Assembly (NCBI GenBank): GCA_030427085.1
Contig: JAUHXH010000001.1
Span: 682,001-746,000, forward strand
Reading direction: 5' to 3'
Source: Gammaproteobacteria bacterium
GTDB lineage: Bacteria > Pseudomonadota > Gammaproteobacteria > Pseudomonadales > Halieaceae
DNA: 64,000 bases
Each line of letters begins with the position of its first letter. Position 1 is the stretch's first letter. Below the pieces are notes generated by a model that was not told where the DNA came from, did not search any database, and was given only the letters and a program-made list of their open reading frames with translations. The position numbers and the translations under genes were made by a program. This document shows positions 3,466 to 26,795 of this stretch, one piece after another.

Positions 3466-3587
3466 TTAGTCTCCCTTGAAGTGGGGCGCAGGCTAATCGC
3501 AGGGTCAAGCACGGTTCGAGGCTTAAGCTTTCCTTAACCTGTCCCGGCTACAATCGCTGACATACACCATAGACCTTAATTCGGAGA

Positions 3588-5633
3588 GTGTCATTGCGTT
3601 TGAAAAGAGATTGCTTTCCCGGCGAGTTACGCAGCAGTTTGATCTTTTTTCTGCTCGTTCTTGCCATAGGTTCGATCAGCCGGGCGGGTTTGGCCGTCTT
3701 GTATTGGGATCGGGTAGTAGATGCTGGTCACATTGGGGCGGTGTTTCTCCAGGGACTACGATTTGATGTCATCCTTGCCTGTATGTTGTTGGTGTTACCG
3801 GCGGCACTGGCACCCTGGGTTTCCCGGCGAGAGATGCTTGTCAGTATCACGCGTGTTTATTTCATTGTCTGCATAGGGCTGGTTCTCTTCATGGAGGCCG
3901 CGTCCCCGACCTTTATCGCAGAGTATGATTCACGTCCGAATATGCTGTTCGTCGAATACCTGAAGTATCCGAAAGAAGTATTCAGCATGCTGTGGGTAGG
4001 TTATCGAGAACAGGTTATTCTGGGGTTGATCGCTGTTGGACTGCTCACCTTTGCATCATCCAGGATTCTGTTTGGCAAGGCTCGAGCAGTGGAAGAGGGC
4101 GGCCTTCTCCGTAAAATCGTCCTGTCGCTTACCGTAATTGCCATAGCGGCACTCGGTATCCGGTCCAGCTTTGGGCATCGGCCCGCCAATCCCAGTATGG
4201 TGGCCTTTTCGTCGGACATGATGGTCAACGACCTCGCTTTGAACTCCACTTACAGCCTGCTGTACGCCGTCTACAGCAACCAGCGACATGAGCGAGGTGT
4301 CAAATCTTACGGACGAAAACCCTGGGATCTTGTCGTCAACGACATCCGCTCATCTATGTATCTGGACGAGGAGGATTTTCTTTCCAACGAGTATCCTTCA
4401 TTACACGATTCTCCGTGGGTGGCGGGCACACCTCGGCACCCCAACATCGTAATCATTCTGGAAGAAAGCCTGGGAGCAGAGTATGTCGGCGCTCTTGGGG
4501 GCATTGGGGTTACACCCGAACTCGACCAGTTGGCGAGCCAGGGCATCTGGTTTGAACAACTCTACGCCACTGGCACTCGATCCGTGAGAGGCATCGAGGC
4601 GGTTATCACCGGATTTACACCGACACCGGCCAGAAGTGTCGTAAAGCTACCCAAATCCCAGACTGGATTTTTTACTATTGCACAGCTGCTGAAGCCCTAT
4701 GGATACGATTCGAGTTTCATATATGGCGGAGAGGCCCACTTCGACAATATGCGCCAGTTCTTCATGGGAAATGGTTTTGACCGGGTAATCGAGCAGAAAG
4801 ATTATGCCAGCGCCGAGTTCACTGGATCCTGGGGTGTGAGCGACGAGGACCTGTTCAGGCGTGCGCACCGTGAATTCGAGGCTATGCACGCGCGGGACCA
4901 GCCCTTTTTCAGCCTGGTTTTTACCTCATCCAATCACTCTCCCTTCGAGTTTCCAGAGGGGAAGGTCCAGTTGTATGAGCAACCGCAGGCCACGGTGAAC
5001 AATGCGGTGAAGTATGCCGACTATGCGCTGGGCCAGTATATAGATGAGGCGAAGCATTCTGGCTATTGGAACGACACACTGTTCCTGATTGTGGCGGACC
5101 ATAATTCAAGGGTTCGTGGAGCAGAGCGAGTCCCGGTCGAGTACTTCCATATTCCCGCCCTGATAATGGGCGGCGCCGTCAAGCCACTAAAATATTCCCG
5201 CCTGGCAAGCCAGGTTGATTTGCTGCCGACCCTGCTGGATCTTGCGGGCATCGATGCACCACATCCCGCTACGGGAATTGATTTGTTGAGGCCTGATGTG
5301 GAATACATCCCTGGCAGGGCGATTATGCAATATGGAGATACCCAGGCCTACTTACAGGATGACCGCATCGTGATTTTGGCCCCTGATAAGCCACCCGAAG
5401 TCTATGACTATAGGCATGACACGGGGTACAGCCCGGTTAGTGCAAATGATGTGCAATTAATAGACCGGGCGGTATCTCAATCTATCTGGAGTGTTGAGGC
5501 TTACCAGCGAAATTTGTATCGATTGAGGGCGAATGAGGAGGTTACCGGTAAGGAGTTTGCGACTTTAATCCAGTCTTCCCCAAATACCGCGGAGCGGCTT
5601 GGGGCGACTAATGAGAAAACTCACCGGGGATGA
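3588..5633 (+). CDS. LTA-synthase-like phosphoglycerol transferase (sulfatase superfamily)
   Basis: A 681-residue protein starting at GTG 3588, preceded by GGAG. About five hydrophobic helices fill residues 10-180. An extracytoplasmic alkaline-phosphatase-superfamily domain follows from about residue 286 (NIVIILEESLGAEYVGA). The likely catalytic Thr lies in YATGTRSVRG near residues 326-332, and the metal-binding ADHNSR motif near 504. This is the architecture of LtaS and OpgB-type enzymes, which transfer phosphoglycerol or phosphoethanolamine groups in the envelope. In a Gram-negative the probable acceptor is a periplasmic glucan or lipid A, but the substrate cannot be told from sequence. It appears to be a single-gene unit. 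Confidence 0.87.
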   Translation: MSLRLKRDCFPGELRSSLIFFLLVLAIGSISRAGLAVLYWDRVVDAGHIGAVFLQGLRFDVILACMLLVLPAALAPWVSRREMLVSITRVYFIVCIGLVLFMEAASPTFIAEYDSRPNMLFVEYLKYPKEVFSMLWVGYREQVILGLIAVGLLTFASSRILFGKARAVEEGGLLRKIVLSLTVIAIAALGIRSSFGHRPANPSMVAFSSDMMVNDLALNSTYSLLYAVYSNQRHERGVKSYGRKPWDLVVNDIRSSMYLDEEDFLSNEYPSLHDSPWVAGTPRHPNIVIILEESLGAEYVGALGGIGVTPELDQLASQGIWFEQLYATGTRSVRGIEAVITGFTPTPARSVVKLPKSQTGFFTIAQLLKPYGYDSSFIYGGEAHFDNMRQFFMGNGFDRVIEQKDYASAEFTGSWGVSDEDLFRRAHREFEAMHARDQPFFSLVFTSSNHSPFEFPEGKVQLYEQPQATVNNAVKYADYALGQYIDEAKHSGYWNDTLFLIVADHNSRVRGAERVPVEYFHIPALIMGGAVKPLKYSRLASQVDLLPTLLDLAGIDAPHPATGIDLLRPDVEYIPGRAIMQYGDTQAYLQDDRIVILAPDKPPEVYDYRHDTGYSPVSANDVQLIDRAVSQSIWSVEAYQRNLYRLRANEEVTGKEFATLIQSSPNTAERLGATNEKTHRG

Positions 5634-19683: not shown

Positions 19684-20264
19684 TGAACAAATAGATGCAC
19701 ATGACGAATCTTCTCTAAGGGAGTAGGCTGCCGGTGTGAAAATTGATGCTGCTCACCTGAAAAAGAACAGGGATTAAGATGATGCGTGTTCCAACGTACG
19801 AGACAAATTCGAAGGGTTCACATCATCGAGATACGTGTCGACATGCTCTAAAGCAGTATTCTTATCCACAAAAGGTCCCTTAGTTTGCCCTTCCCTGGTT
19901 AAGAAAAACCACTCTTCGTTGATTCGGACAGTTCGTTAGGACCTAAAATATAGCTGTTCTATAGCATCTTTTGTCCGTTTCATTGCTTTACACCAATACA
20001 CTGTGGGCCGCTAATCTGTCTACAAGGCGCTTGCAAAATTGATTTTTTCGCAAGTTTGGAGTCTTGGGCCAGGGACATTTCCATCCTGTATGAGCGTGAT
20101 GTTAGTGACCATCTTAGTACTTTTGGTCTGTCTTCCATATGACGAAAATATTACAAGGATGTAATCAAGCAGTAATCATAGAGAAAGCTCTGGGTGCTAA
20201 CTTAGTTGCAAGAAATCAGATGCAAATTAGACGCGTATTACAAGAAATAGGACCGGTGAAGATC
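19684..20264. other. Gene-free interval
   Basis: About 580 bases with no supported gene. It holds short AT-rich stretches and one GGGNAGGG-type octamer on the minus strand (CCCTTCCC at 19888-19895). The last 126 bases (20139-20264) could encode an extension of the STN protein but look unlike a signal peptide. No RNA gene or repeat was recognised. Confidence 0.4.
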
Positions 20265-20630
20265 ATGCCAAAGAATCTGATTTTCTCGATTCGCGGAAAG
20301 ATGGGGAAAGGGATAGGTCTCGTTCTTTTCTTGATGCTGGGGATGACAGGAGCAAGTGTTCAAGCCCAGCCTGAAGGGAACGTAAGTATTTATCATTTTG
20401 TTGTTCCATCAATGCAGGTTGATAGCGCCCTGACGGCCCTTGCAAAGCAGTCAGGTTCTCAAATCATCTATTCCAGCGAATTGGTCAGCTCCTATGTGTC
20501 AACGGCCATTGATGGTCAGTACACGTTGGACCAGGCGCTAAAGCGGATGCTTTCAGGTACAGATTTGTCCGGACGTATAACCGATCGCGGAGTGATAGTG
20601 GTAACAGAGGTCTGGCCAAGAAAAGTGTAA
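20265..20630 (+). pseudogene. Orphan STN (secretin/TonB N-terminal) domain, probably truncated receptor
   Basis: From the ATG at 20265 (MPKNLIFSIRGKMGKGIGLV) a signal peptide ends near VQAQP. A complete STN domain follows: YHFVVPSMQVDSALTALAKQ, IIYSSELVSSYVSTAIDGQY and LDQALKRMLSGTDL. The domain normally begins a TonB-dependent receptor with surface signalling. Here the frame ends (TEVWPRKV, stop) right after the STN domain, where plug and barrel should start. Either the receptor was truncated by deletion or this is a stand-alone STN protein. The surrounding decay favours truncation. Confidence 0.68.
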
Positions 20631-20767
20631 AAAGTTTCGGTTTGCGCAAAACCTGGGCAGACAGACCCTCTAAAGGCGGGTATATCGCTTACCAGTCCGT
20701 CTAGATGTATCGATGGTGTAATCTCCCAGCAAGTTAATATAAGCCGACTTCCAAAATTGGCCACCAT

Positions 20768-20795
20768 ATTTAACATAAGATAGATTATCGGCGCT
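20768..20795. other. Degenerate dif-like (Xer recombination) site
   Basis: The 28-bp site reads ATTTAACATAA, then GATAGA, then TTATCGGCGCT. The first 11 bases are identical to the XerD arm of the dif site at 25262. The 6-bp centre matches at 4 of 6 positions and the XerC arm at 6 of 11. It lies in the same orientation as the main site, 4.5 kb away. Such pairs flank elements that integrate with the host XerC/XerD recombinases. It could also be a chance or decayed site. Confidence 0.62.
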
Positions 20796-20811
20796 TTTGT
20801 TGTTGTGGGGG

Positions 20812-20839
20812 TTGTTGTGGCGCTCTTGTTGTGGCGCTC
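20812..20839. repeat. 14-bp perfect tandem repeat
   Basis: Two adjacent copies of TTGTTGTGGCGCTC, preceded by a related TTGTTGTGGGG. It sits 17 bases past the degenerate dif-like site. No function is known. It might be an accessory protein-binding site or a replication-slippage product. Confidence 0.7.
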
Positions 20840-21014
20840 TAGATGATGCATCTTTGATTTGAGACCAAATTGCAGAGTAGGGGTGAGTGGTGACAGCCAT
20901 TACGATTCTAGCTACAAATCGGCGAGCGACAAACGCCTCTCCAGCATTGTCAGGTAAAAAATAACAGCTACGGCTGCTAATAATATATAGCTATCAACCC
21001 TTTATCGATATATA

Positions 21015-21104
21015 CCATTTGTTTATAAGTCTTCGGCAATCTGCCTCTCCGGCGGTGCGGCCTCGCGATGCCATTTTTGTTTATAAAACAATCGGCTGCA
21101 CGCC
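21015..21104. repeat. Pair of related direct repeats, possible TnsB-binding sites
   Basis: Two units (21015-21047 and 21071-21104) share CCATTT, then GTTTATAA, then TCGGC and GCC at similar spacing, with a 2-bp difference inside. Tn7-like transposon ends carry several such TnsB-binding repeats, and these lie 200-300 bases upstream of tnsA. A weaker third copy of the first half occurs at 21128 (GCCATTTGCAACA). No terminal TGT end could be fixed. Confidence 0.4.
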
Positions 21105-21318
21105 TTTTCTCCTCCTCTAGAATAAGCGCCATTTGCAACAATTAATTTGTGAAAATACAATATTATCCTTATATATCAATATCTTAACTATATTATCTAT
21201 TGTTATTTCAAACTGGGAGCGGTAGGGTCTTGGTGATGAGTCGTCGATACTGGATGGGCTGATGAAATCAGGCAGTGTCAACAATAGAGCCACATCTCAA
21301 TGACAATTGGGTGACGCT

Positions 21319-22011
21319 ATGACGGGAATTTTGACTACAGATATGCCCAAACCTGGGGTATCGATTTCAAAGGGGCGACACGACAAGAACGAAATAACCT
21401 ACCAGTACAGCCCCACCATGAGGCGCCTCATGATATTTGAAGGGCCATATGAAGCACTGCACGGAATATTATTTGAGACCACTCCAGGGGTATCCGAAAT
21501 AGTTGAACAGCCGCTGCGGATCAATGAAAGAGTCCGCGGCAAGCACTTAGACTACACCTTCGACTTAAAAGTGGCGTGGTATTCAGGCCTTGTTAAATAT
21601 TTTGATTTCAAGGCAACCACAGACCTGGTTCAGTTTAAAAATGGCCTGAGCGGGCCGGCAAAGTGGGAATCCGTTCTTGAATGGACGAAAGCCCGCGGGA
21701 TTGATGCTGAATATAGAACCGAAGAAGAACTCATAAATAGAAAAGTGTTTATCAAGAACTGGCAGAGAATGATCCCTGCGATTCAGCAATATCAAAAGGA
21801 AGAGCTGCCCGGCATTGCCTTGGCTGTTGAGGAATTTATGGATCTAACTAAAGAAAGCTCGGTGCGTGAGATCACTAGCCGATTAAGCGAGTACCATTCA
21901 ACGCAGATACAAGGTTATATCTACGAACAAATTAGACAGGGGAACTTAACCAGCGACTTAAACAGGTCCGAGTTTAACTTTGATAGCGTCATTCTTCTTC
22001 AAAGAAAGTGA
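21319..22011 (+). CDS. tnsA: TnsA-like transposon endonuclease
   Basis: A 230-residue protein from the ATG at 21319 (a TTG at 21307 is an alternative). It resembles the TnsA endonuclease: GPYEALHGILFE carries the catalytic Glu (45), YTFDLKV the Asp (82) and YFDFKAT the Lys (98) of the restriction-enzyme-like fold. A C-terminal region of about 90 residues would bind TnsC. In Tn7-type elements TnsA cuts the 5' strand ends so that transposition is cut-and-paste. Its stop overlaps the tnsB start, indicating coupled translation. All three catalytic residues are present. Confidence 0.88.
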   Translation: MTGILTTDMPKPGVSISKGRHDKNEITYQYSPTMRRLMIFEGPYEALHGILFETTPGVSEIVEQPLRINERVRGKHLDYTFDLKVAWYSGLVKYFDFKATTDLVQFKNGLSGPAKWESVLEWTKARGIDAEYRTEEELINRKVFIKNWQRMIPAIQQYQKEELPGIALAVEEFMDLTKESSVREITSRLSEYHSTQIQGYIYEQIRQGNLTSDLNRSEFNFDSVILLQRK

Positions 22012-23939
22012 AGCCAGAAACACTACATAAGTACTGTGAAGACTCCCACTGGCACGATGTTTCTCGTTGGCCAATGCCAATTTTCTGGGGTTGGAGTCGC
22101 TCAGATAAAGAGATATTCGATAGGCGATATAGGGCGGTATGCATGGCCTTTGACGGAAAGCCTCTAACTGCGATCTATAATTCCACAAGTATTGCGAGAA
22201 AGGAGCTATACGGCTTTATCCAGAAGGCACTTACGTATAAGTCTGACGGCGAAATATGGGGTTTTGTCGCTCTAAAACCGAGGATCAGAATCAAAGACTA
22301 TACGAGGTTGACAGTGACCGATCGAGGGTTAGCCGGTCGTAGAAAACAATTTTTCCGGAACTACCCTGAACTGGAGTCGGAGATAAAGAATCGCTATCTT
22401 AACCTCTCCACCACTGACGAAAAACTTATCTATGAGCGCGGTGGCCCTATCTCATATGTCCACTGGCATTTTACGCAAAAGGCCAAGAAGCTAGGCGTTA
22501 AAGAAACCGACTACCCCCTAAGAAATGAAGATCTAGCATACGAATTTGTCAGATTACAGTGCCGAGAATATGATCAAGGTGTGACAGCGAGAAAAGTCAT
22601 TCATGCACGCCAAGGTCAAGAAGCGGCAAAACGGCATGATGCAACTTCACCAAGCACACGAAAACTTCCCTGGAAAACGAACCTAGTTCCGTATGACATA
22701 GTTGAGTTTGACGAGCACCTTCTAAACTTTTTTATGACTGTACAGTGCCAGACACCAGAAGGCATAACAAAGCCAAAAGTGCTTACTCGATGCTGGCTTC
22801 TCGTTTTACTTGATGTCGTGTCTAGAGCAATTCTTGGCTATCGTCTCTCTCTTAGCCCTCGATACACTAGTGATGATGTTCTGCAATGCTTCGCTCATGC
22901 ACTTACGCCGTGGAAGCCAATAGTTTCCAGCCTGCCATTCGCCCAATATGAACCTGGGGCGGGTTTTCCATCGGGCGTTATCGACAATTGTCGCTGGCGT
23001 CTATTCGATGAGGTCAAAATGGACAACTGCGCCACCCACGTTAGCTCACGGACCATAGAACGGATATCTCATGTTTCAGAATCCAGATTAAACTTTGGAG
23101 AATCCGGAGAGCCGGCGAAGCGCCCGTATGTTGAAAGCTTTTTTAATAGCCTAGGCAAACTTCTAAGCAACCGTATGATCTCCACCACCGGCACAAATAT
23201 TTTCGATTACCGGAGGAGGGGGCCAGAAAATGAAGCTGAAAAGTACGATGTAGATATCAATGAGATATATGTTCTAGCTGATGTTATGTTGGCAAATTAC
23301 AATGCCAGTAGAACTCATAGCGGGCTGTTTGGACAGTCCCCGTTAGAAACAATCGAGGCCTTTGACAACCAAAAAGCAATTATCCCGAGGTACCTCCTGC
23401 CTGCCTTCCAGCGACGCAACCCCTTGAATTACATATATGTCACGCGAACAATTCGGGGCAGGAACCGAGGCTTACAGCCGTACATTCAATATAAATACGC
23501 AAACTACCGGTCTGAAGCGCTTTCGAGCGCCGAATTCAAATCCTCGAAACACACAGAGCTACTTCTTGAAATCGACCGGACCGACCTTAGAACAATTCGT
23601 TGCTATGAAGACCAGACAGGAACTTCAATGGATGTTTATGCACAAGGGGAGTGGGGTGACTTTAAACACGATCTAGACACTAGAGACAATGCGAATCGTA
23701 TGAGACTTGCTTCTAAGAGACAGATTAATCCAAACCATCAAGTACTAGCTTCCTACAGGCAGCATCTCAAAAGCAAAGCGTCATCGAATAAACAAGCTGC
23801 GAAACAATTCGCCAGGCAAGAACGGGACATGAGCGATCATCTTTCTCGCGACCGGCAAGTAACTTCCTCAACTCTTGAAAGAATGAGAGATAAGCAAAGA
23901 CCAGTGATCCTATTTGATCGTGCATTTGAAGACAAATAA
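22008..23939 (+). CDS. tnsB: TnsB-like DDE transposase
   Basis: A 643-residue protein starting at GTG 22008, overlapping tnsA by 4 bases. It has N-terminal helix-turn-helix regions (about 40-230) and an rve-type catalytic core with Asp235 (VEFDEHL), Asp339 (VKMDNCA) and Glu376 (PYVESFF), the D-D-35-E spacing of the family. A C-terminal Mu-type barrel (about 460-560) and a basic coiled tail follow. It cuts the 3' ends and joins them to target DNA. All catalytic residues are intact, so the enzyme may be active. Confidence 0.92.
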   Translation: MKPETLHKYCEDSHWHDVSRWPMPIFWGWSRSDKEIFDRRYRAVCMAFDGKPLTAIYNSTSIARKELYGFIQKALTYKSDGEIWGFVALKPRIRIKDYTRLTVTDRGLAGRRKQFFRNYPELESEIKNRYLNLSTTDEKLIYERGGPISYVHWHFTQKAKKLGVKETDYPLRNEDLAYEFVRLQCREYDQGVTARKVIHARQGQEAAKRHDATSPSTRKLPWKTNLVPYDIVEFDEHLLNFFMTVQCQTPEGITKPKVLTRCWLLVLLDVVSRAILGYRLSLSPRYTSDDVLQCFAHALTPWKPIVSSLPFAQYEPGAGFPSGVIDNCRWRLFDEVKMDNCATHVSSRTIERISHVSESRLNFGESGEPAKRPYVESFFNSLGKLLSNRMISTTGTNIFDYRRRGPENEAEKYDVDINEIYVLADVMLANYNASRTHSGLFGQSPLETIEAFDNQKAIIPRYLLPAFQRRNPLNYIYVTRTIRGRNRGLQPYIQYKYANYRSEALSSAEFKSSKHTELLLEIDRTDLRTIRCYEDQTGTSMDVYAQGEWGDFKHDLDTRDNANRMRLASKRQINPNHQVLASYRQHLKSKASSNKQAAKQFARQERDMSDHLSRDRQVTSSTLERMRDKQRPVILFDRAFEDK

Positions 23940-23941
23940 CT

Positions 23942-24904
23942 ATGAAGGGAACTCATGTTCCACTGGATCATCCGTTAGAACGAAATACGGCTATCCTGCC
24001 TACGCCTGCACTTAACCTGTGCGTGAATGAGATCAAAACATGGGTCGAAGATTATGTGCCAGGTGGCATTCTTCACGGTACACAACGAGTAGGTAAAACC
24101 TTTGCATCAAAATTCATCGAAAAGAGGGTGGAGCAATTGTTTGGAAAGCAGATTCCAACCTATTTTCATTGCTGCAGTGACCCTAAAAACCCAACAGAAC
24201 TCGATTTCTTCTCGGGGCTATTGAAAACAACCGGTTTTGCGCTCGACGCTCCGACTCGCACAAATAGGGCACGAATAAGTATAGTGAATCATTTCGAATG
24301 CATTTCCCTGGAGTCAAAAGACAATAGGATTATTCTGATGCTAGACGACGCACAGTGGATACAGCGTTCCGAATATCATTGGCTAATGTGGCTCCACAAT
24401 GAACTCGACAAGCGCGGCATATTCCTTATAGTCGCCCTGGTGGGCCAGCCTGAATTACTGACAAAAGCTGATCAATTGCTCGAGTTTCCCGAAATTACGG
24501 CGCGATTCATGGCAGAGGCAGTAGAGGTCAGAGGTATATGTGACGCCGAAGACCTCCGATTTATTCTTGAGGCATTAGACACTAAATCAGAATTTCCTAA
24601 CGGATCGGGTATATCATTTGCAGCCGCCTATGTCCCGACCGCGCATCGTGAAGGGTTTAGGCTTGCAGGACATGCTGACCGAATATTCAATCTATTCCAG
24701 AGAAAAGCGACGGATAATAGCGTAAAAAATTTCGATCAACTGACGATGCAGACTATAAAGCGGTTTACGCTTTCACTATTGCGACAGCTATCCGCCTTAG
24801 ATTCCAAATATCTCCAACTACTCGACTCAATGATTCTGGATTCCATCGAGAAATCTGGATTTCAACGTCTAGAGTTAAAAAAGACCAATCGTATGCCTCG
24901 CTAA
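23942..24904 (+). CDS. tnsC: TnsC/TniB-like AAA+ transposition regulator
   Basis: A 320-residue ATPase with Walker A GTQRVGKT (46-53), Walker B IILMLDDAQW (130-139) and a sensor-like ALVGQPELL. This is the TniB/TnsC family that forms filaments on target DNA and links target choice to the transposase. It begins 2 bases after tnsB. In complete elements a tniQ or tnsD gene follows; here none does, and dif with an IS comes next. The target selector is therefore absent, lost, or replaced by something unknown. Confidence 0.9.
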   Translation: MKGTHVPLDHPLERNTAILPTPALNLCVNEIKTWVEDYVPGGILHGTQRVGKTFASKFIEKRVEQLFGKQIPTYFHCCSDPKNPTELDFFSGLLKTTGFALDAPTRTNRARISIVNHFECISLESKDNRIILMLDDAQWIQRSEYHWLMWLHNELDKRGIFLIVALVGQPELLTKADQLLEFPEITARFMAEAVEVRGICDAEDLRFILEALDTKSEFPNGSGISFAAAYVPTAHREGFRLAGHADRIFNLFQRKATDNSVKNFDQLTMQTIKRFTLSLLRQLSALDSKYLQLLDSMILDSIEKSGFQRLELKKTNRMPR

Positions 24905-25187
24905 TTCCGATGTGATAGGGCGCTCGTGCTCGACGGCTTAAAAAATGATGCATAGGAAAGTAAGCGGTCTTTCCTGTGCGCCATTCTTGTCGCTTCCTAT
25001 TCCCTTAATTTCTCGAGGCTTTCGTAGCTTCGTAGCTCGCTATATTCAGTTTGCTGTTTTGCTAGATAGAGGCCTGTTCGGTTGGGTGAATTCTTACGTT
25101 TCATGTACTCCTGTTGGGCGGTTCATCAGGTTTTCTATGCTGCAGTTGGGTCCTTTGCTCAAGCAGTTGGCGCAAAAATAGGGTCAA

Positions 25188-25195
25188 GGGTAGGG
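25188..25195 (+). promoter_or_regulatory. KOPS-like octamer pointing to dif
   Basis: GGGTAGGG matches the GGGNAGGG consensus of FtsK-orienting sequences and points toward dif, 66 bases away. In E. coli such octamers steer FtsK translocation toward dif. A single 8-mer can occur by chance; its place and direction are what make it notable. Confidence 0.5.
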
Positions 25196-25261
25196 GGATT
25201 TACTAGGAGCATCAGCCGAGCGGAGCGCTCTCGAGTTATCAGTGAGCGCCATGCATTTATG

Positions 25262-25289
25262 ATTTAACATAATATACATTATGCGCATA
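25262..25289. other. dif: dif site (XerC/XerD chromosome dimer resolution)
   Basis: Read on the minus strand, the 28 bases are TATGCGCATAA (XerC arm), TGTATA (centre) and TTATGTTAAAT (XerD arm). This equals the E. coli dif sequence at 26 of 28 positions, with only the two outermost XerC-arm bases different. dif is where XerC and XerD resolve chromosome dimers at the division septum under FtsK control. It normally occurs once per chromosome, in the terminus. Gene orientation flips around this point, as expected. Confidence 0.93.
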
Positions 25290-25301
25290 TTAGGTGTAGG
25301 C

Positions 25302-25346
25302 GTTTTTTAGTAATGTCGTATTTCCGGTTTTTAGAAATGTCGCCTT
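25302..25346. repeat. Left inverted end of the ISNCY-like element
   Basis: It contains two spaced copies of a TTTAG-N2-ATGTCG word (from about 25306 and 25330), mirrored at the right end. These are likely transposase-binding sites. The outer boundary is set by where left and right ends stop matching. Confidence 0.78.
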
Positions 25347-25391
25347 CTAAGGTGTCCTTAGGGTATCCGTGGACACTGGGAGGATCAAACG

Positions 25392-26711
25392 GTGACAGTT
25401 CTGACGATGAGCCAGGAAGAGATCGACCGATTGGAGGTTATTACGCAGGTCGCTGACCGCCGGCTGAGCCAGCGGCAGGCAGCGGACATTTTGGGGCTGG
25501 GCACACGGCAGGTACAGCGCCTGGTGAGTAACTATCGGCGCGACGGTGCTGCCGGCTTGTTGTCACGACGCCGTGGTGCACCCAGCAACCGCCAGTACCC
25601 CCGGTCACTCCGCGAGCATGTCGTCGCGCTCCTGCGCACGTACTACGCCGATTTTGGCCCGACACTGGCCTGCGAGAAGCTGCTGGAGCACCATGACATC
25701 ACGCTCTCGGTTTCTGCGGTACGGCAATGGATGATCAGTGAGGGTTTGTGGGTGCCCCGGAACCAGCGCCCGATAACTATCCATCAGCCACGCGCCCGGC
25801 GTGAGTGTTTTGGTGAACTGGTGCAGATCGACGGCTCGGATCACTACTGGTTCGAGGACCGTGGACCGCGCTGCACCCTGCTGGTATTCATCGATGACGC
25901 CACCGGCCGATTGCTGCACCTGCGATTTGTGGAGTCAGAGTCGACGTTTGACTACTTTACAGCCACGCGTCGTTACCTGGAGCAATACGGGCGCCCAGTT
26001 GCGTTTTACAGCGATAAACACAGTGTTTTTCGGGTGAATAAGGTCGGTGCGATCGGTGGCGATGGGATGACGCAGTTTGGTCGGGCCCTGCATGAGCTCA
26101 ACATCGACATCATTTGCGCAAACACCTCGCAGGCCAAGGGGCGTGTTGAACGGGCGAACAAGACGCTGCAGGATCGTCTGGTCAAGGAGCTGCGACTCCG
26201 GGAGATCAGTACACACGCTGATGCCAATGCCTACGCTCCGGAGTTCATCGAGGCCTTCAACGGCCGCTTTGCCCGGGAACCCGTGAAGGACAAAAACACC
26301 CATCGCCCATTGGATCCCGAGCTCGAACTGGATGAGATTTTCTGCTGGCGTGAAGAGCGGACCGTGAGCAGCAGCCTCACGGTGCAGTATGACAAGGTGC
26401 TGTACCTGTTGGACAAGACCGTGGCTGTGGCGCAGGAACTGCCTCGCAAGCGTGTGACGGTTTACGACTACTCGGATGGCACGATTTCGATCAAGTACAA
26501 GGGCCTGGCCCTGCCCTACTCTATTTTCGATAAAGCCAGCCAGGTCGATCAGGGGCAGGTGGTGAGTAACAAGCGGTTGGGCGCAGTATTGGCATTTGCC
26601 CAGGAGAGACAGCAGGAGCGACCCACGGCGCGGAGCAAGAAAGGCCCTGCCCGGTCAGCCCAGCGACAATTCAGGGAAGAAAGAACCCGGCAGGACAATC
26701 CTGCTGTTTAA
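25392..26711 (+). CDS. ISNCY-type DDE transposase
   Basis: A 439-residue protein from GTG 25392 with GGGAGG upstream. Its N-terminal helix-turn-helix (SQRQAADILGLGTRQVQRLV) is followed by an rve core with Asp147 (VQIDGSDHYW), Asp208 (AFYSDKHSVF) and Glu253 (GRVERANKTLQ), then a C-terminal beta domain (VTVYDYSDGTISIKYKG). This is the layout of the ISNCY and IS481-related transposases with the Asp-Lys-His second motif. The frame is complete with all catalytic residues, so the element may be mobile. Confidence 0.92.
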   Translation: MTVLTMSQEEIDRLEVITQVADRRLSQRQAADILGLGTRQVQRLVSNYRRDGAAGLLSRRRGAPSNRQYPRSLREHVVALLRTYYADFGPTLACEKLLEHHDITLSVSAVRQWMISEGLWVPRNQRPITIHQPRARRECFGELVQIDGSDHYWFEDRGPRCTLLVFIDDATGRLLHLRFVESESTFDYFTATRRYLEQYGRPVAFYSDKHSVFRVNKVGAIGGDGMTQFGRALHELNIDIICANTSQAKGRVERANKTLQDRLVKELRLREISTHADANAYAPEFIEAFNGRFAREPVKDKNTHRPLDPELELDEIFCWREERTVSSSLTVQYDKVLYLLDKTVAVAQELPRKRVTVYDYSDGTISIKYKGLALPYSIFDKASQVDQGQVVSNKRLGAVLAFAQERQQERPTARSKKGPARSAQRQFREERTRQDNPAV

Positions 26712-26727
26712 TCAACCCGATTCTCCG

Positions 26728-26773
26728 GAGGCGACATTTCTAAAAAATGCAGGGGCCGACATCTCTAAATAAC
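26728..26773. repeat. Right inverted end of the ISNCY-like element
   Basis: On the + strand it reads AGGCGACATTTCTAAAAAA, a spacer, then CGACATCTCTAAATAAC ending at 26773. This is the inverse of the left end, with one extra A:T in the inner run. Confidence 0.78.
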
Positions 26774-26795
26774 GTAGACATTAGGTTTATTGCTT

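Follow-up and report, generated by a model that had tools for sequence, protein, structure and literature searches.

Tn7-like transposons, among them Tn7, Tn6022 with its TnsF, and the CASTs, share a tnsA-tnsB-tnsC operon with catalytic residues. A Tn7-related transposase is also drawn to a site-specific recombination site in the Tn5053/Tn402 family, whose members target the res sites of serine resolvases and encode tniR, and are not known to have TnsA. Elements of the IMEX and dif-module kind are flanked by dif-like sites in direct orientation, and IMEX have no integration transposase of their own. In the IS1202 family (ISAjo2 type), a TnsB-like transposase is the single gene, and the elements hunt dif or pdif, have TGT ends, produce a 5-bp target-site duplication (TSD), and insert 5 bp from the XerC arm, on one side only. 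The main text of one survey offers, in the TnsF of Tn6022, a precedent for target selectors derived from tyrosine recombinases (PMC10293859). Two broad surveys of where Tn7-like elements insert and what they carry are silent on dif in their main texts (PMC10293859, PMC8649781), and among openly accessible papers on Tn7 with dif or Xer only those on IS1202 and on dif modules proved relevant. We found no earlier paper in which dif serves Tn7-like elements as an attachment site.

A tnsABC block beside dif

The window, by which we mean the whole 64,000-nucleotide stretch of DNA that was analysed, carries tnsA, tnsB and tnsC as intact open reading frames in one operon (21319-24904, forward strand; Table 1), and thus the gene set of a Tn7-like transposon. 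This stretch is AT-richer and lies at the GC-skew switch. Judged by sequence, all three proteins are divergent: Pfam recovered only the AAA domain of TnsC and, for TnsB, a trace of rve, and solved TnsB structures in the PDB were matched by a profile of the window TnsB and its relatives (E down to 1e-13). An AlphaFold model of TnsA made without an alignment was uninformative (pLDDT 33). Unlike known Tn7-like transposons, the window copy has no TniQ/TnsD selector; no open reading frame follows tnsC, and the copy contains no recombinase gene. Neither a tniR resolvase gene nor a res target was found within the block, and the site that adjoins it is dif; recombination-site targeting would be common to the block and Tn5053/Tn402, with res there and dif here. 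A TniQ acting in trans was considered and rejected, since the genome's only TniQ genes belong to a second, complete Tn7-like element (G000:C2:228000-247900, locus L172) with tnsABC, a 240-aa TniQ and a 585-aa TnsD-like protein.

Table 1. Positions of features in the window, with the evidence for each.
Feature	Position	Strand	Evidence and remarks
Degenerate dif-like site	20768-20795	-	XerD arm 11/11, centre 4/6; 6/28 mismatches to E. coli dif
Candidate left end TGGCGCTC (uncertain)	20832-20839	+	36 bp from XerC arm of dif-like site; inverted copy at 25244-25251
tnsA, heteromeric transposase endonuclease subunit	21319-22011	+	NCBIfam NF033179, E 2e-4; E..D..DxK motif: E53, D82, D96-x-K98 (D in place of relatives' E)
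tnsB, DDE transposase	22008-23939	+	PDB TnsB matches via family profile; catalytic triad D235, D339, E376 present
tnsC, AAA+ regulator	23942-24904	+	AAA_22, E 1.5e-7; Walker A GTQRVGKT, Walker B ILMLDD
Candidate right end GAGCGCCA (uncertain)	25244-25251	-	Inverse of 20832-20839; 10 bp from XerD arm of dif
True chromosomal dif	25262-25289	-	Perfect core; single in genome
IS1202-family IS	25295-26780	+	Transposase 25392-26711, NF033594 ISNCY_2, E 1.5e-152; TSD TTAGG

A search of the 4.19-Mb genome that allowed up to 3 mismatches found the chromosomal dif and no other site, and the GC skew turns at this dif. Together with a degenerate dif-like site in the same orientation, it brackets tnsABC, an arrangement of two direct-orientation sites that also bounds IMEX and dif modules, although here the left site is degenerate. 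The XerC arm of this left site agrees with E. coli dif at 7/11 positions and with the genome's own dif at 6/11, giving 6 or 7 mismatches of 28. The initial annotation had described both this layout, with catalytic residues intact, and the arm scores (XerD 11/11, centre 4/6, XerC 6/11 against the own dif), and our analysis bears them out. In 20 Mb of Markov-simulated sequence no site with 6 or fewer mismatches arose (<0.004 such sites per window), so the dif-like site is not a chance match; every other site in the window differs from E. coli dif at more than 10 positions. The degenerate site is possibly a former target dif. To its left lies a stand-alone STN (secretin/TonB short N-terminal) domain protein that resembles the start of FecA (20139-20630). 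Extra dif-like sites with the centre TGTGCA occur on other contigs of relatives (G689:C25:72-96, G689:C27:72-96, G692:C14:8201-8225) and possibly belong to Xer-integrating phages or plasmids.

On the other side of dif lies an insertion sequence that the initial annotation had missed. Its ISNCY_2/IS1202 transposase, its TGT/ACA ends, the 5-bp TTAGG duplicated at both ends and its position 5 bp from the XerC arm of dif place it in the IS1202 family; ISAjo2-type elements follow the same insertion rule (PMC10132070).

Relatives of the block and their distance from dif

A search of 369 genomes of the class gave its best match to the window TnsB in a genome of another order (G181; 34% identity over 575 aa). 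Its locus L021 reads tnsABC, six direct end repeats (3577-3737), then dif at 3805, with no fourth gene after tnsC, and in both genomes the XerD arm of dif is the one toward tnsC. The G181 contig starts inside tnsA, so that the sequence to the left lies beyond it; a contig adjoining this side was looked for and not found. Only these two genomes of the window lineage were found. A single-protein scan of genome contigs with the window TnsB returned no relatives, nor did scans of viral contigs with the TnsB pair and with the L021 TnsB; a phage collection gave no match, and an alignment of eight TnsB proteins yielded no usable search pattern.

Through more distant TnsB matches we reached a sister clade whose elements are ordered [TniQ-TnsC-TnsB-TnsA] - Yrec - cargo - left end - dif. 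These elements share TniQ, multi-site ends and, in at least one case, a 5-bp TSD with known Tn7-like transposons. Their TniQ exceeds 450 aa and has a conserved zinc-finger Cys/His set; its Pfam match falls below the cut-off, and its best fold matches are TniQ, with weak Foldseek E-values. Yrec is a divergent Xer-like tyrosine recombinase of about 245 aa which, unlike the inactivated TnsF of Tn6022, is intact. The cargo includes defence systems, with CBASS in Halioglobus pacificus and Gabija in Marinobacter changyiensis. Scanning 84,980 genomes for Yrec gave 38 loci, and wherever Yrec and dif shared a contig (21/21 genomes, a count limited by contig breaks) they lay 3-56 kb apart (median 8.9 kb). 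At G804:C6 and G815:C2, Yrec occurs with no tnsABC near it; neither contig holds a dif, and each copy is 30 kb or more inside its contig.

A second tyrosine recombinase, about 265 aa long and marked by MSKxGQARVLTP, sits between cargo and dif (L077:3559-4356, L075:14486-15286, L081:1067-1837, and at L114, L091, L102 and L124). At several of these loci a 29-bp inverted repeat, AATCCGTAAAAATAACATTATTACGGATT, lies about 50 bp upstream, and parts of it recur between dif and the element end in M. guineae and M. nauticus. Recombinase and repeat may form a separate cargo-capture system.

The left end of the sister elements, TGGACGACC-CACAGAAAGTGCTAAA plus two further repeats, lies 35-37 bp from dif in 13 genomes (12 ends on the XerC side, one of them, in Sedimenticola L133, read by eye, and 2 on the XerD side). 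M. salicampi has an end on either side of dif, its second left end lying 35 bp from the XerD edge. The left end of Neomelitea salexigens is likewise 35 bp from the XerD edge, that is, 30 bp plus the TSD, and this element has the terminal inverted repeat TGGCCATCC and a perfect 5-bp TSD, ATTTG. Three further sister ends lie at 41, 41 and 53 bp. The spacers between dif and the end are unrelated (mean identity 29%), so that the insertions are independent, their position set by the distance to dif and not by a conserved neighbourhood; at control dif loci of the window's family, a sister-type end was found in 0/30. In M. salicampi and M. nauticus the right end is a close inverse of the left end, while in most sister elements no right end or TSD was found. 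The loci of M. guineae, M. algicola and M. salexigens keep the left end without tnsABC and therefore look like non-autonomous derivatives. In G458 (L076), a tandem second copy of the left end about 155 bp inside the first suggests repeated insertions at the same dif. Since related transposons keep this distance of 35-37 bp in at least 13 other genomes, Tn7-like elements appear to use dif as a landing site. These elements differ from the IS1202 family in their distance from dif, in lying on either side of it, and in having TnsA and TnsC.

The TnsB tree separates the Yrec clade from a clade of the window, G181 and TniQ-bearing elements (100/100); the elements with the fixed spacing are only distant relatives of the window lineage. 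Association with dif accordingly appears in two lineages, either by convergence or by common ancestry with losses. TniQ-bearing relatives of the window lineage, in Klebsiella grimontii and on Burkholderiales plasmids, are not at dif. One of them, on the K. grimontii plasmid pNY3A (L029; E 7e-76 to the window TnsB), has no dif nearby; this Tn7-like element carries CBASS as cargo, and its tnsABC is accompanied by a TniQ-like protein of 506 aa. The same tnsABC block far from dif, with defined ends, had been named at the outset as an observation that would refute a link to dif; distant TniQ-bearing relatives do lie away from it, whereas G181 does not.

If the dif-like site is a former target, a TGG end would be expected, from the spacing of the sister elements, at 36 bp from its XerC arm; TGGCGCTC stands at exactly this distance. 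The 14-bp unit that carries it is a tandem duplicate, with a second copy of TGGCGCTC at 20818-20825; the flanks of the candidate ends do not match as a TSD would, and no TnsB-site repeats stand out against shuffled sequence. The inverted ends agree over 8 bp only. For the first three of these reasons, the spacing is only suggestive of an element end. An alternative pair at 20757 and 25174 with the TSD AAAAT was rejected, since several such pairs are expected by chance and its inverted-repeat score (10/22) is ordinary.

Explanations for the position at dif

Given these results, we consider it probable that the block is a minimal Tn7-like element which lies at dif because dif is the attachment site of its lineage. 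The proposal that dif attracts the transposon, as res attracts Tn5053, gains from G181, whose block abuts dif, from the sister ends in 13 genomes, and from the nearness of Yrec to dif. Counting against it are the window ends, which lack clear repeats and a TSD, and the right end, which would be 10 bp from dif and not 35. The missing TniQ, the distance in the TnsB tree to the fixed-spacing clade, the TniQ-bearing relatives away from dif, the small number of genomes in the window lineage (two), and the right ends and TSDs not found in most sister elements also weigh against it. The initial annotation had also raised a Xer-borne module, in which a circle of tnsABC and the dif-like site was integrated at dif by host XerC/XerD, leaving two borders. 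Two direct dif sites do flank the block, and the XerD arm of the outer site is intact; dif modules with dif-hunting insertion sequences are known from Acinetobacter. The two dif-like sites in a single genome are the sole support from the locus itself, and any Xer-dependent movement of the block is putative. The fixed spacing of the sister elements points instead to transposition beside dif, the 36-bp gap between dif-like site and TGG end fits insertion beside a former dif, and no second copy or circle is known, the G181 contig beginning inside tnsA. We therefore regard integration as such a circle as unlikely.

Terminus regions gather mobile elements, and tnsABC could have come to lie there without targeting; some distant TnsB relatives, 37-149 kb from dif, would fit such passive accumulation. 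Spacing exact to the base pair in 13 genomes with unrelated spacers, set against none of the controls, makes this unlikely for the sister clade, and we give it little credence for the window. It is just as improbable, in our estimate, that chance or a transposon end accounts for the dif-like site and that the block is merely a dead remnant unconnected with dif: the missing clear ends and TniQ would suit this, but the rarity of such sites in the simulation and the G181 relative, likewise at dif, oppose it. Somewhat less doubtful, though still not favoured, is a scenario in which two separate Tn7-like lineages, besides IS1202, adopted dif. The window type would have done so once TniQ was lost; its TnsC or TnsB would itself read Xer-bound dif, and the block could move by both transposition and host Xer recombination.

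For the favoured reading, in which dif is the attachment site, a likely mechanism can be sketched. Comparison of the sister elements shows that they insert on either side of the 28-bp dif, 35-37 bp beyond its edge, with the left end toward it. TniQ, perhaps with the element's Yrec, may recruit TnsC and TnsAB to dif or to dif-bound XerC/XerD; TnsC would then direct TnsAB to insert about 36 bp from dif, and cutting and joining by TnsA and TnsB would leave the 5-bp duplication. Since TnsA is kept, cointegrate resolution probably does not depend on Yrec. Landing beside dif would be safe, at a conserved sequence present once per chromosome. In the window copy, which lacks both TniQ and recombinase, recruitment, if still active, must go directly through TnsC or TnsB. 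The TniQ-less type possibly recognises dif directly, as has been proposed for the IS1202 transposase and XerC, or has possibly lost its mobility; the window copy may instead be an immobile relic.

dif as a proposed target for Tn7-like elements

The attachment site proposed here is dif, and not glmS, comM, a tRNA gene or another of the sites used by known Tn7-like elements. It is found almost universally, in one copy and with a conserved sequence. To Tn7-like elements that read it, dif would offer a place to attach in most bacteria with no gene disturbed, and phage-defence islands would come to lie at the terminus. Steering of a transposon by the host XerC/XerD becomes testable, and targeting of dif would be a new kind of target selection beside TnsD, TnsF and CRISPR.
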